Virus record (IMG/VR): IMGVR_UViG_3300045902_000154
Location: 1-31,135 of that record
Source of the DNA: a virus
Strand: one strand, 5' to 3'
Length of the DNA: 31,135 nucleotides
The position numbers and the translations under genes were made by a program. Shown here piece after piece: positions 2,684 to 28,215 of the stretch. The notes under the pieces were generated by a model, which saw only the letters and a program-made list of their open reading frames with translations, made no database searches and was not told where the DNA came from. Numbering within the stretch: position 1 is the stretch's first letter; every line of letters starts with the position of its first letter.

Positions 2684-2871
2684 CGCGCAGCCCTCTTTTT
2701 GTCGAGACGTTCGAGTCGTTCCAAATCGTCAATCGGGACAATCGCCGCCACGGATTTCCCATGACGGGTAATCTCGATTCGGTCGCCTTGATAAATCACC
2801 ACGTTGAGCATCTCCGAGAGATTCTCCCGCAGCTCAGCCGTGCTGATTGTCGTTGTCTGCCGCTCTGTCAT
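2671..2871 (-). CDS. Phd/YefM-type antitoxin, no adjacent toxin
   Basis: A 66-residue protein with a typical Phd/YefM N-terminal DNA-binding domain: STAELRENLSEMLN, then GDRIEITRHGKSVAAIVP and the acidic helix IDDLERLERL. Proteins of this family neutralise a partner toxin with the C-terminal tail and repress their own promoter. Here the tail is short and basic (DKKRAARCRD). The ATG overlaps the stop of the CysH-like gene (ATGA), and its stop overlaps the papain-like protease gene. No Doc, YoeB or PIN toxin lies beside it. It may repress this operon or neutralise a host toxin; both are inference. Confidence 0.85.
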   Translation of the reverse strand: MTERQTTTISTAELRENLSEMLNVVIYQGDRIEITRHGKSVAAIVPIDDLERLERLDKKRAARCRD

Positions 2872-3602
2872 TTTCTCACCATTCTGTGTGACTCAATTCT
2901 TCCTAGAACGTCCCCGTAATACTCGCGCTCCCACTGAGATCGCCCATGTCCTTCGCCTCTCGCTCCGCCAAGGCTAGCAACCCTCAACTGCTGTCTCGTC
3001 CATCTTCCGCCGCCATTCATCGCGTACGCTGGATGCACAGGAAGATTCTTTGCGTAAAGGATTGCGAACACATCCTTGGCTGTCAGGTACGCCAGCGGAC
3101 ACACGGTTGCTCGCGTAGTGATGCCATGTGTCCAGACTCGCAGATACCTCGATGACGACTCCTCAGCCCTGACCCCTGTCATTGCGAGTTTTCCATGTCG
3201 GCGCGAAGCCTCCTGCACTCCACACTCTAAGGTTCCAGTCGCATGCCATCCCGTCTCATCGAGAGTGCAGGCCACCGTGATCTCCTCATATGTTTGCAGG
3301 CCAGTGCGATTGTATACGTCGCGAACAATTTCACACTCCGGGTTGTAAATTGGCAACACCTTAATCCAGACCAGTGGCAGCTTGGGGCACACCACACTAG
3401 CCATGTGAGCCAACACAACAGAATCTTTTCCCCACGACACGGAAACGTAACCTGCATCTGCTGCCGATTCACGCATGTACTCAAGGCAGCGATTATAGTT
3501 CCTCCATAGCATCGCAGAGTTCGAATGAGCGGCATCCGCCCTCTCCTGCTCCGCCCAGATGGCCAAGTCTCGCTTTGTGTGCCTTGCCGATTGAATTAAC
3601 AT
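2868..3602 (-). CDS. cysH: CysH-like PP-loop protein of type IV-B CRISPR-Cas
   Basis: A 244-residue protein of the PAPS reductase/adenine-nucleotide alpha-hydrolase family. The PP-loop is at residues 54-61 (SVSWGKDS), followed by the family's G-x-R-x-x-E-S motif at 143-149 (GVRAEES) and the CPL...DVFAILYAKNLPVHPAY region at about 168-193. The ATG at 3602 overlaps the end of csf3 by 7 bases. A longer upstream extension in the same frame would run deep into csf3 and is unlikely to be translated. A cysH-like gene is a hallmark of type IV-B CRISPR-Cas loci, where its role is unknown. No other sulfate-assimilation gene is nearby, so a CRISPR-linked role is more likely than cysteine biosynthesis. 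Confidence 0.86.
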   Translation of the reverse strand: MLIQSARHTKRDLAIWAEQERADAAHSNSAMLWRNYNRCLEYMRESAADAGYVSVSWGKDSVVLAHMASVVCPKLPLVWIKVLPIYNPECEIVRDVYNRTGLQTYEEITVACTLDETGWHATGTLECGVQEASRRHGKLAMTGVRAEESSSRYLRVWTHGITTRATVCPLAYLTAKDVFAILYAKNLPVHPAYAMNGGGRWTRQQLRVASLGGARGEGHGRSQWEREYYGDVLGRIESHRMVRK

Positions 3603-4327
3603 GGTACGGCTATCTCCACGTGAAATGACCGCTCCCAGTATGGTGGACAGCAGCCACCGTACCACGGCCTCCACCCAATGACGTTGTCTGTGATAAGGTT
3701 CACTGGCAGTCGCCGCATCAGGACTTGGCCGCATGGAGAATCGGCAAACCACGAATAATCATGCTCAATCGGCTCAACTCTCCATTCAACAACCCTGCCG
3801 TACCCGTGCGCTGACTTCTTGCCCACTGCGCTGACCCGCTTCAGCCATCGCCGCAGAACACTCATTGGAGCATCCCCGAGATCCTTTCTGCTCCTCAGCG
3901 CCGCGAACCAGCAGATGCGATCAACAACTGTTGTCCTCAGTGGCAAATACCACGACTTGTACTCGCCGCCAGTGATGTTCACCTTCCCAGTTCTATCGCC
4001 CGCGCCCATCGCCGGGAGCATCTCCAGCGGGAACCGCTTGGCTATGTAGTCGTGATGCTCAGAGTGTTCCGGCAGAATGCAGGAAGACACTCTTGGGATC
4101 ACCAACTTGCCGTGCGACTCTCGCTCAAACGGTGTCCACAGAGTGCCCGGTTTGCTGATCGCATCTGCCCTCGACATCCTCGCTAGATGCCTTCCACCAG
4201 AACTCTCTGAAATCGTTCGCTGCCGCTGCGCAATACACCACTCAACAACTGCGTCCAGTTCAGGACCATAGCCCTCAGCCGACAACACAAGTGGAGACGT
4301 CAGCATCGCAGTCACTTTCACGTTCAT
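3596..4327 (-). CDS. csf3: Csf3 (Cas5-like) subunit of type IV-B CRISPR-Cas
   Basis: A 243-residue protein matching the Cas5-like Csf3 pattern. It has an N-terminal RRM-like strand and loop (MNVKVTAMLTSPLVLSAEGYGPELDAVVEW) in which the predicted base-pair-capping loop follows the first strand. A Gly-rich segment lies at 168-179 (VGKKSAHGYGRV), and the C-terminal block MRRLPVN...CCPPYW resembles the family's R-x-L-P...PPYW region. In known type IV complexes Cas5 caps the 5' end of the guide RNA. The ATG overlaps the csf2 stop as ATGA, and its own stop overlaps the start of cysH. Its position directly after csf2 supports the call. Confidence 0.87.
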   Translation of the reverse strand: MNVKVTAMLTSPLVLSAEGYGPELDAVVEWCIAQRQRTISESSGGRHLARMSRADAISKPGTLWTPFERESHGKLVIPRVSSCILPEHSEHHDYIAKRFPLEMLPAMGAGDRTGKVNITGGEYKSWYLPLRTTVVDRICWFAALRSRKDLGDAPMSVLRRWLKRVSAVGKKSAHGYGRVVEWRVEPIEHDYSWFADSPCGQVLMRRLPVNLITDNVIGWRPWYGGCCPPYWERSFHVEIAVPC

Positions 4328-5166: not shown

Positions 5167-5609
5167 TATGCACCAGCCTTTTTGCTTCTGTTTGCCTCGA
5201 ATTGCTGACGGCCAAAAACAATGCACGGAAGCAGGTGAGTCGCCATGTATCGCGTCACCGCTGTCGCCTCGTCTCCGCTCATGTGGTACAGGGACTCCTG
5301 AATCTGCACGAGCCTCTTGTTGCCCACCACAGCGTTGGCGTCTGCCATCACGTGATTAAGGCATGTGCTCACGAACCCTATCATGTCTCCTTGCGACGAT
5401 TCCTCAATGGCTTTCTCTAGTGCCGATTTAGTGCGATCCCATATCGTCACAGGATCTAGCCTATCGCGATTGAACGCTATCGCAATCAATTCCACAATGT
5501 CCGTTGCTTTCGCTCTGCATGATTCTGAGAACTCTGACTCGTAGCTGGTGATGTCGCAGAGTCCAGCAAGCTCCCTTCGGAATCTTGCCGCGTCAAACTT
5601 TTCAAGCAT
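5166..5609 (-). CDS. cas11: Cas11-like small subunit of type IV-B CRISPR-Cas
   Basis: A 147-residue protein that looks almost entirely helical (EKFDAARFRRELAGL... EKAIEESSQ... GFVSTCLNHVMADANAVV), as expected for the small helical Cas11 subunits that line the belly of class 1 effector complexes. The start at 5609 is chosen because a very strong Shine-Dalgarno (AAAGGAGGAGG) lies just before the ATG; an in-frame ATG-like start at 5681 lacks this. This start places the first 124 bases inside csf1 in another frame. Cas11 sequences are poorly conserved, so the call rests on size, helicity and position between csf1 and csf2. Confidence 0.78.
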   Translation of the reverse strand: MLEKFDAARFRRELAGLCDITSYESEFSESCRAKATDIVELIAIAFNRDRLDPVTIWDRTKSALEKAIEESSQGDMIGFVSTCLNHVMADANAVVGNKRLVQIQESLYHMSGDEATAVTRYMATHLLPCIVFGRQQFEANRSKKAGA

Positions 5610-6268
5610 GTGACCTCCTCCTTTGATGGTGCCAAAAAAGCAACCAACTGAAACACCGGCTCGTCTACGCGATCGAACCATCTAGACAGCTCAATGGCTG
5701 TGTCCACTCCATGCACTTCGCTTAGTTTCATGAATCTCGCTGGTGTCAACTCGCCAAGCAGTGCTGGCTTACCAATCGCTACTACAACCTGCGAAGCCAT
5801 GTCAAACAGCCTGAGGATTTCGATCGCGTCGTAAGCGATTGTCATATCCTCGAACTGCAGCGCGGGCCATCGCTTATCTGTAACGACCGGAGTCTTGTAG
5901 AGAATGACTTTCTGGCCACTCTTCGCGATGCAAATTCCATACGGCGGCTCTGGCGGATTCATGACAGAATTCCGCAATTCCGCTATGTGCGATTTGCTGT
6001 ACGGACGCATTCCACGCGAGTCTATGACCCACGAATAGTTCCTCGCTTTCTGCTTCTTCTCGTGTCCAGCAATATCCATCGACTCTGACTGACTCAACTC
6101 GCAGCCAGCGCAGCGATACTTGCCAGATCTGTTGGCCACATCCCTCCAGTTCACAAACAGCGAACTGACCTTAAACTCCCTGTCTGCTGGGAGTCCGCAA
6201 AAAAAGCACCTGTCGCTGCCTTTGATTGGCAAACCATGCACCATCGCAACAAGCTCACCAATCCTCAC
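5486..6268 (-). CDS. csf1: Csf1 (Cas8-like) zinc-finger subunit of type IV CRISPR-Cas
   Basis: A 260-residue protein with the N-terminal four-Cys zinc finger that marks Csf1: Cys21-F-F-Cys24 and Cys53-A-G-Cys56, separated by a segment containing FVNW. Csf1 is the signature large-subunit-like protein of type IV effector complexes. The start is GTG at 6268, overlapping the upstream TGA (GTGA) with GGGGG upstream; an internal ATG at residue 9 is the alternative. Residues 220-260 (Ser/Gln-rich, low complexity) lie in the region that overlaps cas11 and may be a non-conserved tail. Absence of dinG and cas6 nearby, with cas11 and cysH present, places the system in subtype IV-B. Confidence 0.88.
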   Translation of the reverse strand: MRIGELVAMVHGLPIKGSDRCFFCGLPADREFKVSSLFVNWRDVANRSGKYRCAGCELSQSESMDIAGHEKKQKARNYSWVIDSRGMRPYSKSHIAELRNSVMNPPEPPYGICIAKSGQKVILYKTPVVTDKRWPALQFEDMTIAYDAIEILRLFDMASQVVVAIGKPALLGELTPARFMKLSEVHGVDTAIELSRWFDRVDEPVFQLVAFLAPSKEEVTCLKSLTRQDSEGSLLDSATSPATSQSSQNHAERKQRTLWN

Positions 6269-14067: not shown

Positions 14068-15123
14068 TCACAAATCTGCAGCCATCTCAGATGACCGCTG
14101 CTCAGACCACAACGCCGCCTGCTGGATCGCCTCAGCAGCCCACCCCTGCGCCCGCTGGTGATAGTGGCGAGCGTACAACGCGGAACTCGGCAGACTCCGG
14201 ACGTGCCAGTAGTGCGGCACCTTGTCCAGCGTGTGGTTCCGCTCCGGACCCAGCAGCCGGATGCCATTCCCGACCGTGTACCCCAACTGATTCAATGCGT
14301 GATTGAACCCGCATTCCGTATCAGGCCAGTTGACGCGCCGGGAATCGTAATACTCCCGGACCGCAGACGGACCAATCGCTGAACAGGCAGCCAGCATCGA
14401 ATGGTTCAGGTCTCCGATCCGGTCCCGATCAAACAGCGTGAAGGTATGACTGACCATCTGCCGGTAGTTCCAGTGTCCATGCTCCCGGCGCGGAGACATC
14501 TGATAACCGACTGCCACCGTGCGTTGATCGAGTTGCCGGACCAGATCCCACACCGAGAACGGACTGGCGGGGAGACAATCGCTGTGAGTCTGCAGCAGCA
14601 GGGCCGTTGAGCAGGCATCCCAGATCACCTGCATCGCATCGCAGACCGGTTGAGAGAGATGCACCGGCTGAGGATCGCTCGGCAGCGTAATCAGCGTCAC
14701 GTCCGGCTCCTGAGCCAGTTCCCGGAGCCTGTCCAGTTCCGGTTGCAGCGTCCCCGTATCGACCAGCAGGAACCGGGGGACGATCCCCCGCTGCAGTCGA
14801 TGGAGATCGAGGACTGCGGACAGCAGGTCAATCTGCCCGCGCACAGGGATACCGATGGTGACCTCGACCGGATCGGCAGGGAGATCGTAGCGGGCCAGCA
14901 GCGGTTTCGGCTGGTCGTATTCCCGGCAATCGCGACATGCGGCCGGGGTGCAGTGTCCGTGATATCCGCACGCATGGATTGCCTGCACTCCGCCGCAGCA
15001 ATTGGCCGGTTCGTGCCCGAGGAGCCGTCCGAGGTGGAGACAGGCCGGACGTTCCGCCTTGACCTCGACAGGGGCCGTCTCGCTGAGATGCAATGTTCGT
15101 CCGCCGATCCTGACCGTGCGCAT
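14068..15123 (-). CDS. GT-A-type glycosyltransferase with Cys-rich N-terminus
   Basis: A 351-residue protein. Residues about 28-66 contain a Cys/His-rich segment (Cys28, 42, 43, 52, 58, 63, 66), a feature I associate with planctomycete and Gemmata-type genes. The rest looks like a GT-A glycosyltransferase: VTIGIPVRGQIDLLSAVLD (about 88-106), then FLLVDTGT and a DxD-like segment LLLQTHSDCLPAS. It would transfer a sugar from a nucleotide donor to a protein, glycan or DNA acceptor. It lies at the end of the tail gene block (TAATG overlap with the tail fibre-like gene), so glycosylation of tail or host surface is a reasonable guess. Confidence 0.68.
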   Translation of the reverse strand: MRTVRIGGRTLHLSETAPVEVKAERPACLHLGRLLGHEPANCCGGVQAIHACGYHGHCTPAACRDCREYDQPKPLLARYDLPADPVEVTIGIPVRGQIDLLSAVLDLHRLQRGIVPRFLLVDTGTLQPELDRLRELAQEPDVTLITLPSDPQPVHLSQPVCDAMQVIWDACSTALLLQTHSDCLPASPFSVWDLVRQLDQRTVAVGYQMSPRREHGHWNYRQMVSHTFTLFDRDRIGDLNHSMLAACSAIGPSAVREYYDSRRVNWPDTECGFNHALNQLGYTVGNGIRLLGPERNHTLDKVPHYWHVRSLPSSALYARHYHQRAQGWAAEAIQQAALWSEQRSSEMAADL

Positions 15124-16943
15124 TATCCCTCAGCATTGACGAGATAGATCGGTGCCGACGGAGTCCACACCTGAGAACCATCTTGAATTCTGTAGTTCAT
15201 AGCGTCCGGAAATGCGTTATTCATTTGATCGAAGTGCCAATTGCTAGTGTCTTCGTCGACACCAATTGCAGTCATCCACCAAGTATCTCCGGGAGACGGT
15301 GATGTGTATGTGTAGTACCGGCAGGCAACAAACTTTATCGCGATCACTACTGGGAAATTGAATGGTGCAGAAGACAGCGGTGGCTGCTCTGTCAGCTCAA
15401 ATGTTCCACTCATCCGAAGAACCATTCGCCGCGTGGCAGTGACAGGGTAATTCGGCGGCGGAACGTATTCATCCGGCAACGGAGATTGATTTAGCCCGCA
15501 GCCTGCATACAGTTCGCAGTACGATCCCGTATAGTATGTGTTCCCGAATGTCAGCTTGAATTTCTGGTGGACTGTGTTGCCGTCCCAATAGACGTCAATG
15601 TCAAATTCCTCGTCTGCAGCAAATCCCAAGTTGGCCCTCCATAAGACGCTATTTGAAGTGCGGTTAAATAATCGCAACACCTTCATTCTCATGAAGATCG
15701 AGTGTGCTGCCTCTCGCGCGTGCGTGTAGTTGATTCTTGTCTCCAGATCATATGGAAAGTCGATCCATCCAGAGAACACATTGTCTGCATTGGTCTGAAT
15801 TCCCACCACGTTGGGAAGCGGATCGAATTCCCGAACATTCGGGGATGGACAACTCAGCGAAGTGCGATCAATCGCCGGGAAGAGGCAGTAATTGCATCGT
15901 GTCGGTGGATCCACATAATCAGTCTCGTAAGGGCTGAAGTCTCCACGCCGCTTGCTCTCCGTATCGAGAATGTGCATTGAATTCGTTCTATCCGGCTGAG
16001 GCGTGAACGGATGCGAGCAAACCCACGTCACATCAATCTGATCGTCGCAATTCGGCTCCACGTCATCGGCCATTGCGATCCTCAGTTTCCAGCCGTAAAC
16101 AGGATCTTCCGTCAGTACCGCGAAATACTCATCCTCAACCACCGGAGACGAATCAGGGCACGTCCGAGACATCGGCGGGCTGACCCATGTATTGACTGGC
16201 GTGTCTGTCTCCCAGACCAGTTGAAACCCGCTGAGGGTCAGATCCTCGCCATCGAACGACGACACAACGACACCGTTCTCAGCCAGCCATTCCAGCACAC
16301 CGACGAACACCCACCGATACGGCTGATTGTGCGAGAACTTCTCCGGCACCTGAGGCGGGAAATATCCGTACCGCTGCAGACATTGACAGACCGCCGTTGA
16401 ACCGGAACCTCCGCCGGTGTCCGGAATCGACGACGAAAACCGCACGGCGCATTCCTGCTCGCCCAGCTCGTCCGGAACATACAGCAGTTCAATCGGTCCG
16501 TCCTCATCGGACCGCAGCACATACTCCCCCTCAACTGCACTTGCCCGACGATGCCCGCTGTTCTGCACATCGACAATCGCCATGCACACGCCGGACACCT
16601 GCACGGACACGACATCGCCATCCGCAGCCGGATCTCTCAGCAGCCCGAAATATGACCCTGCATACGGTGCAACTCCGGTCAGCCACATATGCTCATTCGA
16701 CAGGTCCGCAATCGCCTTGCCGTCGAATGCCAGCACCTCACCACGCCGCCGACTCGATCCGCTCGCATTCAGGCACTTGAGCAGATCCGTTTGCCGACCC
16801 TTCAGCGGATCCGGAGCACCAGCCGACAACCGACTCTGCTCGTAGTCCCGACCAGCATCAATCATGCTGTTCCAGAGCTTTGCCCGTGGCGGAACAAACG
16901 GAGCACCGGGAGACGCCTTGCCGTCCGAATTCAGTGGTGTCAT
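15123..16943 (-). CDS. Large distal tail protein, chimeric, receptor-binding candidate
   Basis: A 606-residue protein after the other tail genes, the usual place for receptor-binding or tail-tip proteins. The N-terminal about 250 residues (KLWNSMIDAGRDYEQSRL...) are GC-rich in DNA. The C-terminal half, rich in Tyr, Asn and Cys (for example NRTSNSVLWRANLGFAAD, TYYTGSYCELYAG), is clearly more AT-rich: the 60 bases from 15181 are 40% GC against 65% from 16741. This suggests modular exchange of the C-terminal domain. No known fibre motif is seen, so the role comes from position. The ATG overlaps the upstream stop by ATGA. Confidence 0.6.
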   Translation of the reverse strand: MTPLNSDGKASPGAPFVPPRAKLWNSMIDAGRDYEQSRLSAGAPDPLKGRQTDLLKCLNASGSSRRRGEVLAFDGKAIADLSNEHMWLTGVAPYAGSYFGLLRDPAADGDVVSVQVSGVCMAIVDVQNSGHRRASAVEGEYVLRSDEDGPIELLYVPDELGEQECAVRFSSSIPDTGGGSGSTAVCQCLQRYGYFPPQVPEKFSHNQPYRWVFVGVLEWLAENGVVVSSFDGEDLTLSGFQLVWETDTPVNTWVSPPMSRTCPDSSPVVEDEYFAVLTEDPVYGWKLRIAMADDVEPNCDDQIDVTWVCSHPFTPQPDRTNSMHILDTESKRRGDFSPYETDYVDPPTRCNYCLFPAIDRTSLSCPSPNVREFDPLPNVVGIQTNADNVFSGWIDFPYDLETRINYTHAREAAHSIFMRMKVLRLFNRTSNSVLWRANLGFAADEEFDIDVYWDGNTVHQKFKLTFGNTYYTGSYCELYAGCGLNQSPLPDEYVPPPNYPVTATRRMVLRMSGTFELTEQPPLSSAPFNFPVVIAIKFVACRYYTYTSPSPGDTWWMTAIGVDEDTSNWHFDQMNNAFPDAMNYRIQDGSQVWTPSAPIYLVNAEG

Positions 16944-17740
16944 GCGCCGAATCCTAGAGCTGCTGCCATGTCGATTTCCTCGTACACCCGATCCACATAG
17001 ACATACTGCGGAATCCGTGTTGGCCTATCCTCACCGTCCGCCACCGTCACCGTGTCACGATAGCGAACCCACGCCACATCCCACGCTTTTTTCGCGATTC
17101 CGCCCACGCTCCCAATCGTTACGCCCGTCTCGTTCTTGGCCATCGCAAATTGATAACTCACGCTCGCATCCGCACTCGTTCCATCAGACCCCCGAGCACC
17201 AAGAAACAAGACCTGACCCGGACTATACGACAGGAACGGCGTGCTGTTGACCGTCCCGGTGATCTCGCTGAGAGCCTTGGCAAAGGCCAGCGTCACAATC
17301 CCCAGCGGATGCCGATATGTGACGTTGATCTTCATCGCCGGGATCACGATCTCGGCACCGCGAACCTCATCGCCATCAACGGCAATGACCCCCTGCTGAT
17401 CCGGTGCCGTGTCTGCTGGATACCGGGCCACCTCCTCACGGGCCTGCGTGATATGCACCGTCCCGCCCGTCGTATCGAAATCCCATGTCCATTCGCCAAC
17501 CTCGCTCTGCCGCGTTCCGTACGGGACTTCCACCATCCATTGATTATATGCCGCCCGCCGCATCCGCACATCGTTGCGGTACAAGACGCCGTATGGAGTC
17601 GCAACCAACGCCGCAGTTGACACCAACGCGAACGATGTGGCGGTCTCGACGTCGAACACATCAACAACCTTGTAACGGTACATTGCCGATGGCGGATTGC
17701 CATTCATCTCAATGCCGTCAGTGATCGGAATGATTCTCAT
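16940..17740 (-). CDS. Phage tail-associated protein, 266 aa
   Basis: A 266-residue protein directly after the tape measure gene (ATGA overlap), where distal tail or baseplate-hub proteins usually lie. The sequence looks beta-rich (YRYKVVDVFDVETATSFALVSTAALVATPYGVLY; VAWVRYRDTVTVAD), with no enzymatic motif and no membrane segment. The ending GFGA overlaps the next gene. It resembles hypothetical tail genes I associate with planctomycete phages. The role as distal tail or tail-tip component is inferred from order only. Confidence 0.6.
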   Translation of the reverse strand: MRIIPITDGIEMNGNPPSAMYRYKVVDVFDVETATSFALVSTAALVATPYGVLYRNDVRMRRAAYNQWMVEVPYGTRQSEVGEWTWDFDTTGGTVHITQAREEVARYPADTAPDQQGVIAVDGDEVRGAEIVIPAMKINVTYRHPLGIVTLAFAKALSEITGTVNSTPFLSYSPGQVLFLGARGSDGTSADASVSYQFAMAKNETGVTIGSVGGIAKKAWDVAWVRYRDTVTVADGEDRPTRIPQYVYVDRVYEEIDMAAALGFGA

Positions 17741-19764
17741 GCGTGATGCAAGCTCCAGCCTTTGACGGTCGAAACCAGCTCGCCCATCATCTCGATATCG
17801 TCCTCTCCCTGCTCAGTCAGCTTGGACAATGCTGATAACTGCTTCTGCTCGAAGCTCCGCGTTGCCGTCGCTGCCAATGCTGCCAACGAAAAGCTCGCGA
17901 CCGATGCACCGCCAGAGACCACTTCCGGCAACCCATCGTCACCACCCGCTGCTGCAGACCGCACCGACGACATAGCCGATGTTTGCTTGGCCGCATCAGC
18001 CCGCAGTTTCTGCAACTCCTCCTGCAGTTTCCGCACGCTCTCACTGACCGCTTTTGCCCGCCCGCCAGTTCGTGATTCCAACGCGCTGCCAGTTGCGTCA
18101 ATACTCTCTGCCATCTGCTCATTCATCGCCTCGCCTAAAGCTTTGACACGCTCCCGCAGACCAGCAATAAACGGATCCTCAGCACGGCCACCGCCCACAT
18201 CAGCAGCCATCCCACGAGCACGCCGCTGCTGCTCAATCGCCCGGCCACGCTCAACCTCCTGCTGCATGTTGACGCCGCTGATCTGCTCGAATGCCCACCC
18301 CAGAGCACCGCCGCCAGACGCCGCTTCCAAGATCAAATCACTGATTCCGTTGACGACCTGCTGCCACTTCGCGAGCACCGCATCAGCCGCACCCGTAAAC
18401 AGACTGACCATGCCGCCCGCCACGTTCGCCAGCGTATCCAGAATCGCAGCCCCCAATGTGGACCACGCGCCGGCAAAGTCCCCCGTCAATAGCTCCTCCG
18501 CCAACGTCCCCCACGTCTCGCCAAACAGAGCGTGGATCGCGTCGAGAGTCTGAGCAAACGCCAACTGCAGACCCGTCATCGCCACACGTCCGGCCAATTC
18601 CAGATCTCCAGACCGCAACGCATCGAGAATGCCCCCGATTGTCGATGAAGCCGTCTCACTGATCGCACCGAATGCACCGGTGACAATCTGCCGCAGACCG
18701 GAGACAGCATCCCGTCCAGCCGTCGTCATCGTTGCCCATGCCGCACCAGCAGCAATCAACGCACCGACCACAGCACCCAGCGGAGTCAACAGCAGACCGA
18801 ACGTCACACCAATCGCACTGAACACGGCAGCAACCATCGTCCCTACGCTCGCAATGGCCGACAGCGCAGTCAGGAACCCGCCGATCACCACGCCGGCGCC
18901 GTAGATGGCCGCACCTGCAGCAATGATCGCCGTCCCGACAGCCGCCAGCACGGCACCGACCTTCAGCGCCGTGACGATGAGTGGTTTGTTCTCGGAAATG
19001 TACTTCCTCACCGTCACAACCACACGCGTGGTTGCGTCGGCAACCTTCATGAACGCCGGGGCCACCGCGTCGCCGATCTCATATTTCAGCGCCTCGACGA
19101 CACGCCGGACGCGATTAAACGCATCGTTGATATCCGCCGCGTTTTTGATCGACTCGGGAGACGGAGACAATCCCAACTCCCGAGCCTCTGCCCGCAGCTC
19201 CTTGATAGACCCCAGCATCGGGAGCAGTTGTCGTCCGCTGCCACCCAGCAGCTTCATCGCAACAGCCGCCCTCTTCGATGGATCTTCCACGCCTGCAATG
19301 GCAGCAGCAACCGTCTCGAATTGCCGCTCCGGCTTGATCGATTGAATATACTCCAGACTCAGTCCAATCTCATTCAGTACGTCACCAACAGGGCCGCCCG
19401 CTGCAAGCAAGCTTCCGCCAGCAGACAGCCGTTTCTGCAGAGTCTTGATTGCCGACTCGACATCCTCGATCGAACCGCCAGACTGCTCGGCAGCGAACCC
19501 CAGTTCTGACAGCGCGGCAGCTGCAACGCCTGTGCGGCCAGACATCTTGTCGAGCGCATCACCGGCATCCGAGAATCTCTTGACCATCAGGCCGAACGTG
19601 CCCACGATGCCGGTCCCGATGGCACTGACGCCCGCACCCACGGCCATCATCGATTTGCCGAACGACTGCAGTTCCTTCTTGGCCTTCGCCAACGCCGCAG
19701 TGGTCTCATTCTTGACGAACAATGAGACGTAAGCACGGCCAGCCATCACATCCGCTTTAGCCAT
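17737..19764 (-). CDS. Tail tape measure protein
   Basis: A 675-residue protein with the profile of a tape measure protein: long amphipathic helices (LAKAKKELQSFGKSMMAVG, LSELGFAAEQSGGSIEDVE), a central hydrophobic region with several likely membrane segments (VGAVLAAVGTAIIAAGAAIY, about 265-350) and a helical C-terminus. Such proteins set tail length and help pass DNA through the host envelope. At about 0.15 nm per residue this predicts a long tail of roughly 100 nm, so a siphovirus-like morphology is suggested. The SD GGAGAT precedes the ATG. Its position after two small chaperone-like genes fits. Confidence 0.9.
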   Translation of the reverse strand: MAKADVMAGRAYVSLFVKNETTAALAKAKKELQSFGKSMMAVGAGVSAIGTGIVGTFGLMVKRFSDAGDALDKMSGRTGVAAAALSELGFAAEQSGGSIEDVESAIKTLQKRLSAGGSLLAAGGPVGDVLNEIGLSLEYIQSIKPERQFETVAAAIAGVEDPSKRAAVAMKLLGGSGRQLLPMLGSIKELRAEARELGLSPSPESIKNAADINDAFNRVRRVVEALKYEIGDAVAPAFMKVADATTRVVVTVRKYISENKPLIVTALKVGAVLAAVGTAIIAAGAAIYGAGVVIGGFLTALSAIASVGTMVAAVFSAIGVTFGLLLTPLGAVVGALIAAGAAWATMTTAGRDAVSGLRQIVTGAFGAISETASSTIGGILDALRSGDLELAGRVAMTGLQLAFAQTLDAIHALFGETWGTLAEELLTGDFAGAWSTLGAAILDTLANVAGGMVSLFTGAADAVLAKWQQVVNGISDLILEAASGGGALGWAFEQISGVNMQQEVERGRAIEQQRRARGMAADVGGGRAEDPFIAGLRERVKALGEAMNEQMAESIDATGSALESRTGGRAKAVSESVRKLQEELQKLRADAAKQTSAMSSVRSAAAGGDDGLPEVVSGGASVASFSLAALAATATRSFEQKQLSALSKLTEQGEDDIEMMGELVSTVKGWSLHHA

Positions 19765-24347: not shown

Positions 24348-24633
24348 TCTTTGCTCTCCGCCGCCGAGGTACAGGAATCACAGGTTCTGGTTCGTCGAAG
24401 ATCACCGGTTCCGGCACAGCATCCAGATCCTGCATGGGATCAGTCACTTCCGGACGCGGCTTCGGCTGAGGAGCCTCCACCGCTTCGGCTTCCTGATCTG
24501 GCTCAACCTCGATGGCGATGTTCATCGCAATCAACCGCCGAGCCAGATCGTCTTCCACTAACCCGATCTCGTTCGCCAGCAGACTACACCCCAAGCGAAC
24601 GGACGGGTTACGCAGCATCAGAATCTTGATCAC
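24340..24633 (-). CDS. Small Pro-rich protein after the capsid gene, 97 aa
   Basis: The GTG at 24633 overlaps the capsid stop (GTGA). The N-terminal half (KILMLRNPSVRLGCSLLANEIGLVEDDLARRLIAMNIA) may be a small folded domain; the second half is Pro/Glu/Asp-rich and ends in a basic patch (VPRRRRAKSE), probably disordered. Similar proteins in phages sit next to the major capsid gene and may serve assembly or head-tail joining. Family not recognised. Confidence 0.6.
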   Translation of the reverse strand: MIKILMLRNPSVRLGCSLLANEIGLVEDDLARRLIAMNIAIEVEPDQEAEAVEAPQPKPRPEVTDPMQDLDAVPEPVIFDEPEPVIPVPRRRRAKSE

Positions 24634-26681
24634 GAATCACCCCCGTCTGCGCGGACACCGCCGCGATATTCCTGTTTCCGCACGCCGATGTCGCAGTAGC
24701 CACGCATCTGGATCCCGAGCGTGTTGAACTCGGTATCAGCAGACTCGACAGTCGGCTCCACCCGACCGTACAGGGCCGCAATCTCGATTACCGGCAACAC
24801 TGACGGATCTGCCAGCATGTACCAAGCCGCCGCATCGTAGCCGCTGAAGTTCGCGTCGCTCATGTACTCGCTGCTCTCGACGCGATAACGGCCAACGAAC
24901 GGATTGAAGTTTGGAATCGTTGTGTTGGCTCCAGTCACCATCAACGATGGACTGACCAGCGAGACTGCCCGATTGTACAGAGCAGGCGGAACCAGCAGGA
25001 TTGCCGGCCGGACACCGAGCGGGAATCCGTTTGGATCTTTCTGCTCGCGGAAGATCTTCTCAGTAGTATCCAGTCCCTCCAGCGTCATGTTGGCAACGCC
25101 CGTATTGACGTTGTTGTTGCCGCCAGTGAAGAAGGATGCGTTGTCGAGAAACTCTGTCCAGAAGATCCGGTTCAGTGCCCTTGCACCGCCCAGACCCAGC
25201 TTGCGGGGAGTGTCCGTCAACGCGCCCAGATCGTCATTGATGAAATCCTCACGCGCGACAGCCAGCATCCGGCCATAGGTGTCGGCCTTGTTGCTGTACG
25301 TCACTTCTCCCAGCGTCCCATGAGTGATCGGACCGCCTTTGCCAACCTTCTCGTACTCCACGTCAGCCAGCAGGCTGGTAGTTGTGATCGTTTTGAAGTC
25401 GTTGACAGCACGAATCGCAGCCACTCGCAGAGGAGTCATGTCAACCGACTCCCAGCCCACCCGCAGGAACTTGTTCGCCACGTTCGACAGGATCGTCGCA
25501 ATGCTGATCGTTGAGAAACCAGCAGCATGAATCTGCCGACCACCCTGCTTGTCGAATGCAGCCTGCAGGGCATCGATGGTCACCTTTGTGCTGTAATCGC
25601 TCCGGTACCCCTTCGCTGTTGCAGCAGTCAGGATCAGCTGGTTCAGTCCGATCTGACCCCGGAACCGATCGTGAGCAGCCTGCAGCGTCTGATCGTCGAA
25701 AGCCTTCTCGATGTTCGGCAAACGGCCAGCCTGACAGATCGCCGCTTCCAGAACCTTCGAAGTCAACCGCTCGTCACGTCGCCCGGCCATCGGCATACGC
25801 GCATCGGGAACACTGGCCTCGAGCAACTCCAGGCGGAACTTGTCGACATCCCACTTGGCTTCGATAGCCTGATCGGCCAGTTCCTTGATCGCGTCGATGT
25901 TGTGAGGCTGCGAATCACAAGCCTTGAACGCATAGTCAAGGATCTTGTCGCACCGCTCCTTTTCGAGCTTCTTGGCTTCAAATCCGGATGCACTCAGGGC
26001 CGGTTTCTTGACCGCCTTCCGGCCCTCGTAACTGGCTTTCAGTTCCTCGATCTGCTGATCGTTCATGCCGCTTGCGTCGATGCTCAGCGACTCCAGCCAT
26101 GCCTTAAATTCTGCGTCCATTGCAACCCCACTTGTGATGGATGGAGCAGCCGCAGCCGCTACCGTCGCCGTCGTGTTATCGTCCGCACCGTGCGAAACGA
26201 AACCGAAACCCTTCAACGTCCCCGAGCGAATCACATACGCCGGGCCCGTGATCTCCTGTCCGTTGACCGTCACTTTCTTGTCGGCTGCAATCTCCTGCAC
26301 CCGACCCACTGTGACCTCCAGACTCGCTTGCCACTGGTAGCCGTCCAGAGCCGAGTTAATGACCTCATCCCGATACGGTGTAGCCGCACTTGCCACACCG
26401 TTCGCAATCAACTGTTTCCCATCGTTGACCACCTCGAAATTGCCGACCCGCTTGGTGCGGTCATGATCGAGATTCGCAACAAGAACCTTGCCGTATTTCA
26501 GGCTGGCCAGATCGACGGCAACCGGTAAGTCCCAGCCCCCGACAACCAACGTGCCACCCGTATAGAACGTCGCAGAGAACCGCTTCGGGGCCGGACGTGA
26601 TACGTCACCCTCGACCGGCTCGCCTGCCGTGATCTCCACCGGCGCACTCAACGCGCATAGCTTGTTCTTACTCAACGCCAT
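24630..26681 (-). CDS. Prohead protease and Mu-gpT-like major capsid fusion protein
   Basis: A 683-residue protein starting at ATG 26681 (MALSKNK), with a GTG three codons upstream as alternative. Residues about 20-170 look like an S78-type prohead protease: the candidate His in LVANLDHDRTKRVGNF and Ser in YQWQASLEVTVG. Residues about 285-680 are a major capsid protein of the Mu gpT/HK97 type, with the family's GEVTYSNKADTYGRMLAVAREDFINDDLGAL segment. The linker between (about 175-285) is Ala-rich and helical and may act as the scaffold. Protease, scaffold and shell are thus in one chain, which must self-cleave. It overlaps the end of the portal gene. Confidence 0.85.
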   Translation of the reverse strand: MALSKNKLCALSAPVEITAGEPVEGDVSRPAPKRFSATFYTGGTLVVGGWDLPVAVDLASLKYGKVLVANLDHDRTKRVGNFEVVNDGKQLIANGVASAATPYRDEVINSALDGYQWQASLEVTVGRVQEIAADKKVTVNGQEITGPAYVIRSGTLKGFGFVSHGADDNTTATVAAAAAPSITSGVAMDAEFKAWLESLSIDASGMNDQQIEELKASYEGRKAVKKPALSASGFEAKKLEKERCDKILDYAFKACDSQPHNIDAIKELADQAIEAKWDVDKFRLELLEASVPDARMPMAGRRDERLTSKVLEAAICQAGRLPNIEKAFDDQTLQAAHDRFRGQIGLNQLILTAATAKGYRSDYSTKVTIDALQAAFDKQGGRQIHAAGFSTISIATILSNVANKFLRVGWESVDMTPLRVAAIRAVNDFKTITTTSLLADVEYEKVGKGGPITHGTLGEVTYSNKADTYGRMLAVAREDFINDDLGALTDTPRKLGLGGARALNRIFWTEFLDNASFFTGGNNNVNTGVANMTLEGLDTTEKIFREQKDPNGFPLGVRPAILLVPPALYNRAVSLVSPSLMVTGANTTIPNFNPFVGRYRVESSEYMSDANFSGYDAAAWYMLADPSVLPVIEIAALYGRVEPTVESADTEFNTLGIQMRGYCDIGVRKQEYRGGVRADGGDS

Positions 26682-28215
26682 CGTCTGCACCCCCGCTACC
26701 TGATTCCGTTCCGTTCAGACCCAGCAGACTGACCACCGCTGGCAACACATGCTGCGGCAGATTCAACAGCATGTTGATCTTCCGTTGCGTATCGACATCA
26801 ACACCGTTCGCCGCTGCCATCTCGATCAGTTCATCTTCGTAATCCAAGCCACTGGCCGAATACTCCGAAGTTAAAGATGTGGTCCCGTTCTTCAGCCGCT
26901 TATCCGATGCGTCCGCCTCTGCCACAATGTCCGCCGCTTGGTGCTTCGGCCAGTCCCATTCGTGCGGCATCAACGCTGCATCAACCGCTTCCGGATTGCC
27001 ACCGAACCATCCGTATGTAACGACAGCCATCTCAAACCAGACGGCAAACAGTTGATCCAGAACCACGTCATTACAGTCGGCTCTGTCAATATCCAGTGAC
27101 CCGTAATAGGTCTGATGATCCAGCCGACCTGATGCGTAGTTGTATGACGATGAATCGCAGGCCGCCTTATTGAACGGCATGTTTTTCGGTCGAGCCTGTT
27201 CGTTGATCAGACTCCGCATGAACATCTCATGGTTCGCGGTAGGCTGCTCGGCTTTCAACTGCTCGACGCCATGCCCAGACGGCAACGCAGTGAGCACCTG
27301 TCTTTCGTATTCCATCGTGGACATGGGCGCGACCATGTCCATTTCTTCTGGTTCGAACTGCGTCTTCAGGAATACTGGATGACTCGCAATGTTCTCAGAT
27401 GCACTGACAACAGACTCCCGCCATCGCCGGCCAGCAGCACCTGCATTGAGCGTAGATGTCGTCTCGGGAATACCTCGATGTTGACCCGGACGCCGCATCC
27501 GGAACCAATGCAGCACATACTTCGCCGGAACCCGCTCCGATTGAGTCAGCAACCCGAATCCATTGCTGCTTCCGGGATGCTCCTTCAGGAATTCGTAGTA
27601 TGTCGGATTGCCAAAATCATCGAACTCGATCCCGTCAATCTTCCCCTTTGTCCCGAACGGCAGATACGGCGTTGCACACTGTTCCGTCTCGTGCAGCACC
27701 AGATCAATCTTGACCGCATCCCTTAGATTCCGGTTCTCTCGCAGTACGGCAAACGCCTCGCCGTCCGTATGTTTCGCATGCGCCATGCACCACAACTTCC
27801 GCCGCAACTGCACAGCCTTCGACCACCGCCACCATGCCGCCTCGACCATGCGATTGAACGCCTCGCTGGCCGTCTGCATCCGCAACGTTGGACCGATCCC
27901 AACCAGATCGTTCGTGTATGTGGCCGCGATTCCGTCCGCATACCCGTTGTTCCAAACCTCGTAACGCGACCGCTGAACAAGCTTCGACCGCACATGCGGA
28001 GAGTTAGCAGAGTCCGCGTCTAATGCGTCTGCGTTCGCCCAGTACCGTCGATGCTCGTCAGTGTCACGCGCCGCATCGTAACTGCCATGCGCCTGCTGAC
28101 GCTGCTTCAGTTGCCGCTGCCGATCCAATGCCTCAGCCAGATCCTGACGGACGCGCGAACGCTTTGGCAACGGACGCCCGAACGAGTCCAGAATCGGTGA
28201 AGCCTGCATGATCAT
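26668..28215 (-). CDS. Lambda-type portal protein
   Basis: A 515-residue portal of the lambda gpB/PF05136 type. Clear segments are the N-terminal YEVWNNGYADGIAATYTNDLVGIGPTLRM, the middle KYVLHWFRMRRPGQHRGIPETTSTLN and SYNYASGRLDHQTYYGSLDIDR. The dodecameric portal is the DNA entry pore of the capsid. Start at ATG 28215 or, six bases later, ATG 28209; no strong SD is visible. It follows an intergenic stretch with repeated GTCTA sites. Its 3' end overlaps the protease-capsid fusion gene. Confidence 0.92.
   Translation of the reverse strand: MIMQASPILDSFGRPLPKRSRVRQDLAEALDRQRQLKQRQQAHGSYDAARDTDEHRRYWANADALDADSANSPHVRSKLVQRSRYEVWNNGYADGIAATYTNDLVGIGPTLRMQTASEAFNRMVEAAWWRWSKAVQLRRKLWCMAHAKHTDGEAFAVLRENRNLRDAVKIDLVLHETEQCATPYLPFGTKGKIDGIEFDDFGNPTYYEFLKEHPGSSNGFGLLTQSERVPAKYVLHWFRMRRPGQHRGIPETTSTLNAGAAGRRWRESVVSASENIASHPVFLKTQFEPEEMDMVAPMSTMEYERQVLTALPSGHGVEQLKAEQPTANHEMFMRSLINEQARPKNMPFNKAACDSSSYNYASGRLDHQTYYGSLDIDRADCNDVVLDQLFAVWFEMAVVTYGWFGGNPEAVDAALMPHEWDWPKHQAADIVAEADASDKRLKNGTTSLTSEYSASGLDYEDELIEMAAANGVDVDTQRKINMLLNLPQHVLPAVVSLLGLNGTESGSGGADDGVE

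Follow-up and report, generated by a model that had tools for sequence, protein, structure and literature searches.

Background

In the sections of the papers cited here, modular receptor-binding proteins are described as having a conserved N-terminal base and non-homologous C-terminal parts that are exchanged between related phages (PMC10684548), and P22-like tailspikes as having similar N-terminal head-binding domains (PMC2629481). The beta-tulip proteins gpD, TW1 gp56 and phi29 gp8.5 are trimeric on capsids, and in gp8.5 the beta-tulip base bears an extra C-terminal part (PMC7602432). P22-like phages also carry mobile surface-sugar transferase genes, the prophage gtrABC serotype-conversion cassettes (PMC2629481), and for mycobacteriophages Che8 and Rita, cited in PMC11256854, phage glycosyltransferases are proposed to modify virion proteins, the major capsid protein being modified. 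The present study concerns a fibre-like gene encoding 606 amino acids (aa) in the 31,135-base IMG/VR virus record IMGVR_UViG_3300045902_000154, the whole of which was analysed and is referred to as the window. We place the gene in a new family that encodes modular fibres or adhesins whose base is beta-tulip-like. Its product is probably a virion fibre or adhesin with a conserved, probably trimeric base and a replaceable, most likely host-binding C-terminal part (C part) that is swapped by recombination where the barrel ends. Fibres with exchanged tips are textbook material; the new element is the two-gene cassette of a 266-aa protein and the beta-tulip-like fibre, for which no PHROGs family was matched and which could be used to flag candidate host-range genes among uncultivated phages. 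No account of this cassette was noticed in the titles and opening lines of abstracts listed by literature searches.

As in modular tail fibres and tailspikes, the 606-aa family has a conserved N-terminal base and exchanged non-homologous C parts, whereas its base has no Pfam or PHROGs match and is predicted to form a beta-tulip-like barrel, and the role of the C part as a tip is putative. With phi29 gp8.5 and the lambda gpD-like decoration proteins it shares the predicted fold of codons 51–176, and with gp8.5 the extra C part, but the gene lies in the tail module after the tape measure, has a helix ahead of the barrel and has a C part that varies among relatives. The neighbouring transferase-like gene resembles the gtrABC cassettes of P22-like phages in being a phage-carried sugar-transferase gene (only probably so in the window) and differs from them in its Cys-rich N-terminal module and the absence of a Pfam match; no gtrA or gtrB partner was named when the tested window proteins were scanned against Pfam and PHROGs, no search aimed at gtrA/gtrB having been made. 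Compared with Che8 and Rita, where the major capsid protein is modified, the idea of virion glycosylation in the window comes solely from the gene neighbourhood.

A conserved N-terminal domain shared by related phages

When the 606-aa protein was compared with its relatives, a conserved N-terminal domain followed by a variable C part was found, the junction being placed at the end of the domain, and in one close pair of relatives the homology breaks at this boundary. The parts of the gene are as follows (GC, guanine plus cytosine; pLDDT, predicted local distance difference test).

15123–16943, minus strand: fibre-like gene under study, 606 aa
16419–16943, minus strand: conserved N-terminal domain, codons 1–175, with helix 21–40 and beta-barrel 54–169, a predicted beta-tulip-like base
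16386–16424, minus strand: Gly/Ser-rich linker and homology junction, about codons 174–186; alignments with relatives stop at codons 167–183
15126–16418, minus strand: variable C-terminal part, codons 176–606 (431 aa), candidate receptor-binding tip, matchless and mostly with pLDDT under 50
15092–15991, no strand assigned: lowest-GC 900 bases of the window, 50.0%

Relatives were collected with a six-row alignment of the 266-aa protein encoded upstream, giving 265 confirmed IMG/VR stretches that encode a relative by one peptide pattern (stretches, not distinct viruses), of which 80 loci (numbered with the prefix L) were kept. These include a twin record, IMGVR_UViG_3300044998_000154 (22,191 bases), which stops within the 351-aa gene at window position 14909 and is not counted as an independent relative because it is identical to the window across the 14,856 nt compared. 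The N-terminal domain was found by profile in 74 of the 80 loci (twin included, some domains being cut by contig ends), and in the remaining six the sequence runs out no more than about 130 nt from the 266-aa match. With four duplicate loci left out, 77 proteins were reduced to 51 representatives below 90% identity, 39 of them complete, that of the window included. The N domains of these 39 constitute a single blastp similarity component, so that one family of complete genes from related phages has the common N-terminal domain typical of a modular receptor-binding protein.

The same limit of homology was seen in pairwise comparisons. The protein of L006 (IMGVR_UViG_3300037606_000121) aligns with the 606-aa protein over residues 5–183 only (51% identity) and ends at 273 aa, and a Gly-rich linker is present at the end of the alignment in both; a Gly-rich stretch at the junction was also seen in L119 and L143. 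A terminase alignment gave 80 loci, and when 34 of those records were searched the full 606-aa query matched six (two near-identical), always inside codons 5–181. In the fibre gene of L114 (4495–14416, G035) a second, weaker N-domain profile match was noted, and the gene is followed by a 2,789-aa open reading frame (ORF).

No usable match to the 606-aa protein was obtained in Pfam, PHROGs, NCBIfam, PDB or INPHARED, the PDB rows at expectation values (E) of 0.73–0.81 being chance, and profile searches of PDB sequences with the fibre and 266-aa alignments gave chance rows only (for the fibre alignment none below E 0.76). No PHROGs family was matched by any of 47 proteins of the 266-aa family or by any of 44 fibre-alignment rows, 43 of which cover the N domain alone, no INPHARED phage matched three queries (the 606-aa and 266-aa proteins of the window and one other 266-aa member), and a plasmid search with one 266-aa relative gave no match. 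Scans of bacterial genome contigs with the full protein and a two-row N-domain alignment revealed no relative, but these queries predate the larger alignments, so that absence from bacterial genomes is not shown.

Exchange of the C-terminal part within the gene family

The C parts of the 39 complete representatives range from 41 to 762 aa and fall into five families (2, 5, 7, 2 and 5 members) and 18 singletons, group F2 being joined by partial matches of 43 to 335 aa. The sequence-only reading had suggested exchange of receptor-binding modules between phages and a separate comparison of the two halves, and this was performed with the 33 complete representatives whose C parts measure 60 aa or more; of their 528 pairs, 432 have an N alignment of at least 120 aa. 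C parts were shared in all 15 pairs with N identity of at least 60%, in 10 of 32 at 50–60%, in 4 of 102 at 40–50%, in 1 of 188 at 30–40% and in none of 95 below 30%, the pairs being non-independent with most of the sharing given by the seven members of group F3. With so few detectable C similarities at 50–60% N identity, the halves do not always co-occur with matched divergence.

Sharing in every pair at N identity of at least 60%, and its drop with distance, would also be seen if the C part diverged fast without exchange, selection eroding its similarity while the base stays conserved. This explanation is very improbable. Related C parts are mostly near or above the identity of their N domains (e.g. 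N 53%, C 49%), for which reason the absence of C similarity is not merely faster divergence, and in L146 and L196 a C fragment of 96 aa is 70% identical, against 53% for the N domains. Fast divergence also fits poorly with the abrupt break between L196 and L150, which are sisters with 100/100 support and have a collinear DNA match of 6,134 nt at 86.8%. This match stops at L196:9471, two bases past the profile-placed end of the N domain (9469), the identity being 0.65–0.70 over the last 300 bases of the N domain and then 0.39, and the C parts beyond the break, 367 and 46 aa, have no detected similarity.

When the C groups were placed on a tree of the 266-aa protein (38 rows; L115 was left out, having no profile match), groups F2 and F5 interleaved with three changes each, of which at least three and two, respectively, are forced by starred branches, and the whole labelling needed seven changes compared with a minimum possible of five. 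Among close relatives the family thus has non-homologous, exchanged C parts.

The C part of the window is itself without a relative. Judged by the N domain, the complete representatives closest to the window are L119 (52%) and L121 (48%), whose C parts, 101 and 162 aa long, show no similarity to that of the window. A phmmer search (E up to 1) with codons 176–606 had no hit among 14,607 frames; these were taken from 189 of the 197 loci, the other eight being duplicates of the window or of the twin record.

Low-complexity stretches rich in Ser/Pro or Gly/Ser were observed in or downstream of the fibre gene in L113 (5178–6086, G010), L143 (10637–11584), L136 (13124–14383) and L181 (14447–15727), possibly representing linkers or sugar-attachment sites.

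Predicted fold and position on the particle

The model of the 606-aa protein has a mean pLDDT of 51, but the helix (21–40) and barrel (54–169) are well modelled, with block means of 75–98 for residues 51–170, and the N domain is predicted to consist of a helix and a beta-tulip-like barrel. The best match of the barrel was the HFTV1 chain 8qsy_JJ (Z 10.2, root mean square deviation 3.4, 111 residues aligned), while Foldseek gave 9kzj_H (E 4e-4) and the phi29 gp8.5 base 6qyy_A (E 1.5e-3, target template-modelling score 0.61); the likeness to a beta-tulip barrel (Z 10.2, Foldseek E 4e-4) is that of a predicted model. Further matches were a phi29 gp12 fragment (3gqh_A, Z 8.1), small chains of the capsid entries of phages HFTV1, Sf11, FCWL1 and T1, and the Pa193 and TW1 entries titled decorating and stabilizing proteins; judged from their size, the untitled small capsid-entry chains would be decoration proteins as well. 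Among viral models the barrel matched cyanophage tail-fibre-like proteins (E 1.1e-4 and 3.9e-4) and, more weakly, DUF2190 proteins (E 1.7e-3 and 5.7e-3).

The genes neighbouring the fibre-like gene are the following.

17737–19764, minus strand: tail tape-measure protein (phrog_8462, E 2.1e-34)
16940–17740, minus strand: 266-aa gene, conserved partner upstream of the 606-aa gene, mostly beta (predicted), with weak phage hub/baseplate and tube matches
14068–15123, minus strand: probable glycosyltransferase with Cys-rich N-terminal module, 351 aa

On the minus strand the order is small and large terminase, portal, capsid with protease region, small genes and tape measure, then the 266-aa gene, the 606-aa gene and the 351-aa glycosyltransferase-like gene, followed by two unknown genes, helicase, exonuclease and others. 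The 266-aa protein gave a good model (pLDDT 86), mostly beta, with weak fold matches (Foldseek best E 0.09; second-look Z up to 6.3, the best phage baseplate row at 6.2), ribosomal S24e being tied with the phage 80alpha baseplate in the second look; hub, Dit (distal tail protein) or tube were considered. In L006 the 266-aa gene is 62% identical to that of the window, and portal, capsid, six small genes and the 266-aa gene of the head-tail block match at 35–66% identity; of the tape measure just two short segments match, and a pair of small genes behind the capsid gene have no counterpart in the stretch compared. Other sequence, about 1.9 and 0.6 kb, is present between the 266-aa gene and the fibre gene in L154 and L181.

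The name distal tail protein, given to the gene in the sequence-only reading, was not borne out. The gene stands after those for the tape measure and the 266-aa protein, and the folds that its N domain resembles include those of head-decoration proteins and the phi29 head-fibre base as well as those of fibres, for which reason the name is too specific; in a check for Dit there was no PHROGs or Pfam match and the best fold matches of the base were capsid-entry chains, although absence from a match list excludes nothing. According to the explanation that we favour, the N-terminal 175 residues (helix and beta-tulip-like barrel) would form a conserved, probably trimeric base that attaches to the particle, its most likely site being the tail tip, next to the 266-aa protein, while the C-terminal 431 residues would be a replaceable module, most likely binding the host surface, which phages of the group may acquire, lose or swap by recombination at the end of the barrel. 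Trimer, tail-tip location and receptor binding are what we infer.

A head fibre or capsid decoration protein, whose base binds the capsid as does phi29 gp8.5 and whose C part projects as an accessory binding domain, is a rather unlikely but serious alternative. It is in line with the best fold matches, namely the head-fibre base of gp8.5 and small capsid-entry chains, several of which carry titles of decorating or stabilizing proteins, and with the short versions of the fibre gene (201–224 aa), which resemble stand-alone decoration proteins. It agrees less well with the position of the gene, which comes directly after the tape measure and the 266-aa gene, is linked to the latter in 74 of 80 loci and is not beside the capsid gene, or with the matches of the barrel to phi29 gp12 and tail-fibre-like viral models.

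Several observations weigh against an exchangeable, receptor-binding fibre at the tail tip. On the 266-aa protein tree the C groups show strong clustering (none of 200 shuffles was as low), so that inheritance of C parts is also common, and since the C part of the window is without a relative the module exchange is shown for the gene family and not for the gene of the window. Some relatives have C parts of only 41–49 aa, hence a large tip is not required by all of them. The structure prediction that had been proposed for the C-terminal part yielded a model, but one mostly with pLDDT below 50 (a five-strand stretch at 420–475 has block means of 51–60 and mixed fold matches), and because of this poor model no receptor-binding fold could be recognised in the C part of the window. 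A Z of 10 is only modestly above the Z of 7 to 8 often reached by models without kin, and the best fold matches of the base are capsid entries, which makes a location on the head conceivable. Finally, the GC change point (about codon 268) and the homology junction (about codon 176) lie ~90 codons apart.

GC content within the gene

The gene, its strand and a drop in GC within it were confirmed, and the 60-base values quoted in the sequence-only reading are exact (0.40 at 15181–15240, 0.45 at 15301–15360 and 0.65 at 16741–16800). Its description of an AT-rich C-terminal half was right in that GC is low for the genome, but 50% GC is not AT-rich and the quoted 60-base windows are extremes. Codons 291–606 have a GC of 50.5% compared with 59.5% for codons 1–290, and after the lowest-GC 900-base stretch (0.500, window mean 0.578) the next lowest that is non-overlapping is 5353–6252, with 0.509. 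A single-change-point fit placed the shift at codon 268 (window about 16138), with GC 0.604 before and 0.504 after, but loosely, codons 225–384 being within 2 log units of the best fit; the log-likelihood gain was 8.96 against a shuffle mean of 2.33 and a best of 9.65 in 500 shuffles, the gene being scanned at every base and the shuffles at every third base only.

With codon usage taken from the remaining window genes, the encoded amino acids lead to an expected GC of 0.592 for codons 1–290 and 0.537 for codons 291–606, with 0.595 (z 0.4) and 0.505 (z -3.6) observed, so that 5.5 of the 9 points are accounted for by amino-acid composition. The GC drop is thus the amino-acid make-up, together with a modest codon-usage difference, of the particular C module of the window. 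As a signature of module exchange GC is unsupported: of the 26 complete representatives whose C part reaches 100 aa or more, 13 have less GC there than in the N part, the mean difference being -0.7 points (Wilcoxon p 0.62), and low GC is therefore no mark of the variable part, though that of the window is unusual.

It is possible, if doubtful, that the C part was recently imported from a phage or host of lower GC, which would be compatible with a swapped tip. Such an import would account for the 3 points by which codons 291–606 fall under the amino-acid expectation and for an N-to-C difference in the window of -8.2 points, second largest of the 26 behind L170 (-8.4). Against it, codons 176–290, which lie past the homology junction and are already variable, show no deviation (0.580 observed, 0.581 expected, z -0.1), deviations just as large are seen elsewhere in the window (PAPS-reductase-like z -4.5, 5486–6268 z -3.9, glycosyltransferase-like neighbour z +3.7) and no donor was found in the searches made. 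The strongest negative codon-usage deviations in the window are those of the PAPS-reductase-like auxiliary gene at 2871–3752 (phrog_2302) and the unknown gene at 5489–6268.

Glycosyltransferases downstream of the fibre gene

The adjacent 351-aa gene had been read as a glycosyltransferase, and genes of this kind do recur in the group. Among 89 ORFs of up to 1,300 aa that were chosen within 4 kb behind the fibre gene in 29 loci, Pfam identified glycosyltransferase family 2 (GT2) in nine, glycosyltransferase group 1 in five, methyltransferases in four and radical SAM in three. A search of the 39 whole records with PF00535 and PF13692 gave 23 matches in 10 records, four of them below the curated cut-off, and all 23 start 3–6,363 nt downstream of the end of the fibre gene. 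The chance of such a placement is about 5e-7 if placement is uniform and records independent; accessory genes usually follow tail genes, which this estimate ignores, and a functional link between glycosyltransferase and fibre is therefore only suggested. The recurrence of glycosyltransferases behind the cassette makes a link between adhesin exchange and glycan modification testable.

In the window PF00535 and PF13692 have no match, and the 351-aa protein gave no Pfam family at E up to 10, no meaningful PHROGs match, nothing among PDB sequences and, in a search that had no positive control, nothing in the 34 records selected by terminase. It is, on sequence likeness, nevertheless likely to be a glycosyltransferase. 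An unannotated ORF in LR756511, a record of 595 kb, shares 29.9% identity with it (E 6e-17, 75% covered), and the Cys-rich module of the 351-aa protein aligns with that of the L144 GT2 protein, which occupies the same site downstream of the fibre gene, with a score of 70 (shuffles 29, sd 5.6, maximum 53), a likeness picked by eye before being tested. The catalytic parts of the two proteins score 39 against 36 for shuffles (sd 5.2), not above chance, and a regular expression for the Cys-rich module had no match in the loci.

Different Cys-rich modules, zinc-ribbon-like by eye, were seen ahead of a recognised or probable glycosyltransferase part in proteins encoded downstream of the fibre gene, in the window (14068–15123), L144 (12392–14089), L119 (12922–14226), L113 (6071–7633) and L128 (12142–13578), the L119 and G010 proteins sharing one Cys-rich motif. 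A more speculative and improbable proposal is that, in a large group of uncultivated phages, the tail tip has taken over a capsid-cement fold, which there forms a trimeric socket for interchangeable tips, several of them Cys- or Ser-rich, which the clustered glycosyltransferases would glycosylate, the whole being a protein-plus-sugar diversification cassette.

Other observations

No match to RVT_1, searched with reverse-transcriptase diversification in mind, was found in the 39 records, many of which are short fragments. DUF1559, typical of Planctomycetes, matched in three of the 39 records, above the cut-off in one. The 686-aa protein at 24633–26690 in the window matches the Pfam phage capsid family together with head-maturation-protease and 'major head and protease protein' PHROGs. 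In L006 a 241-aa ORF of many near-identical short repeats is present at 18801–19526, and long repeats coding for Ala/Pro or Gly occur on both strands at 76–2037.

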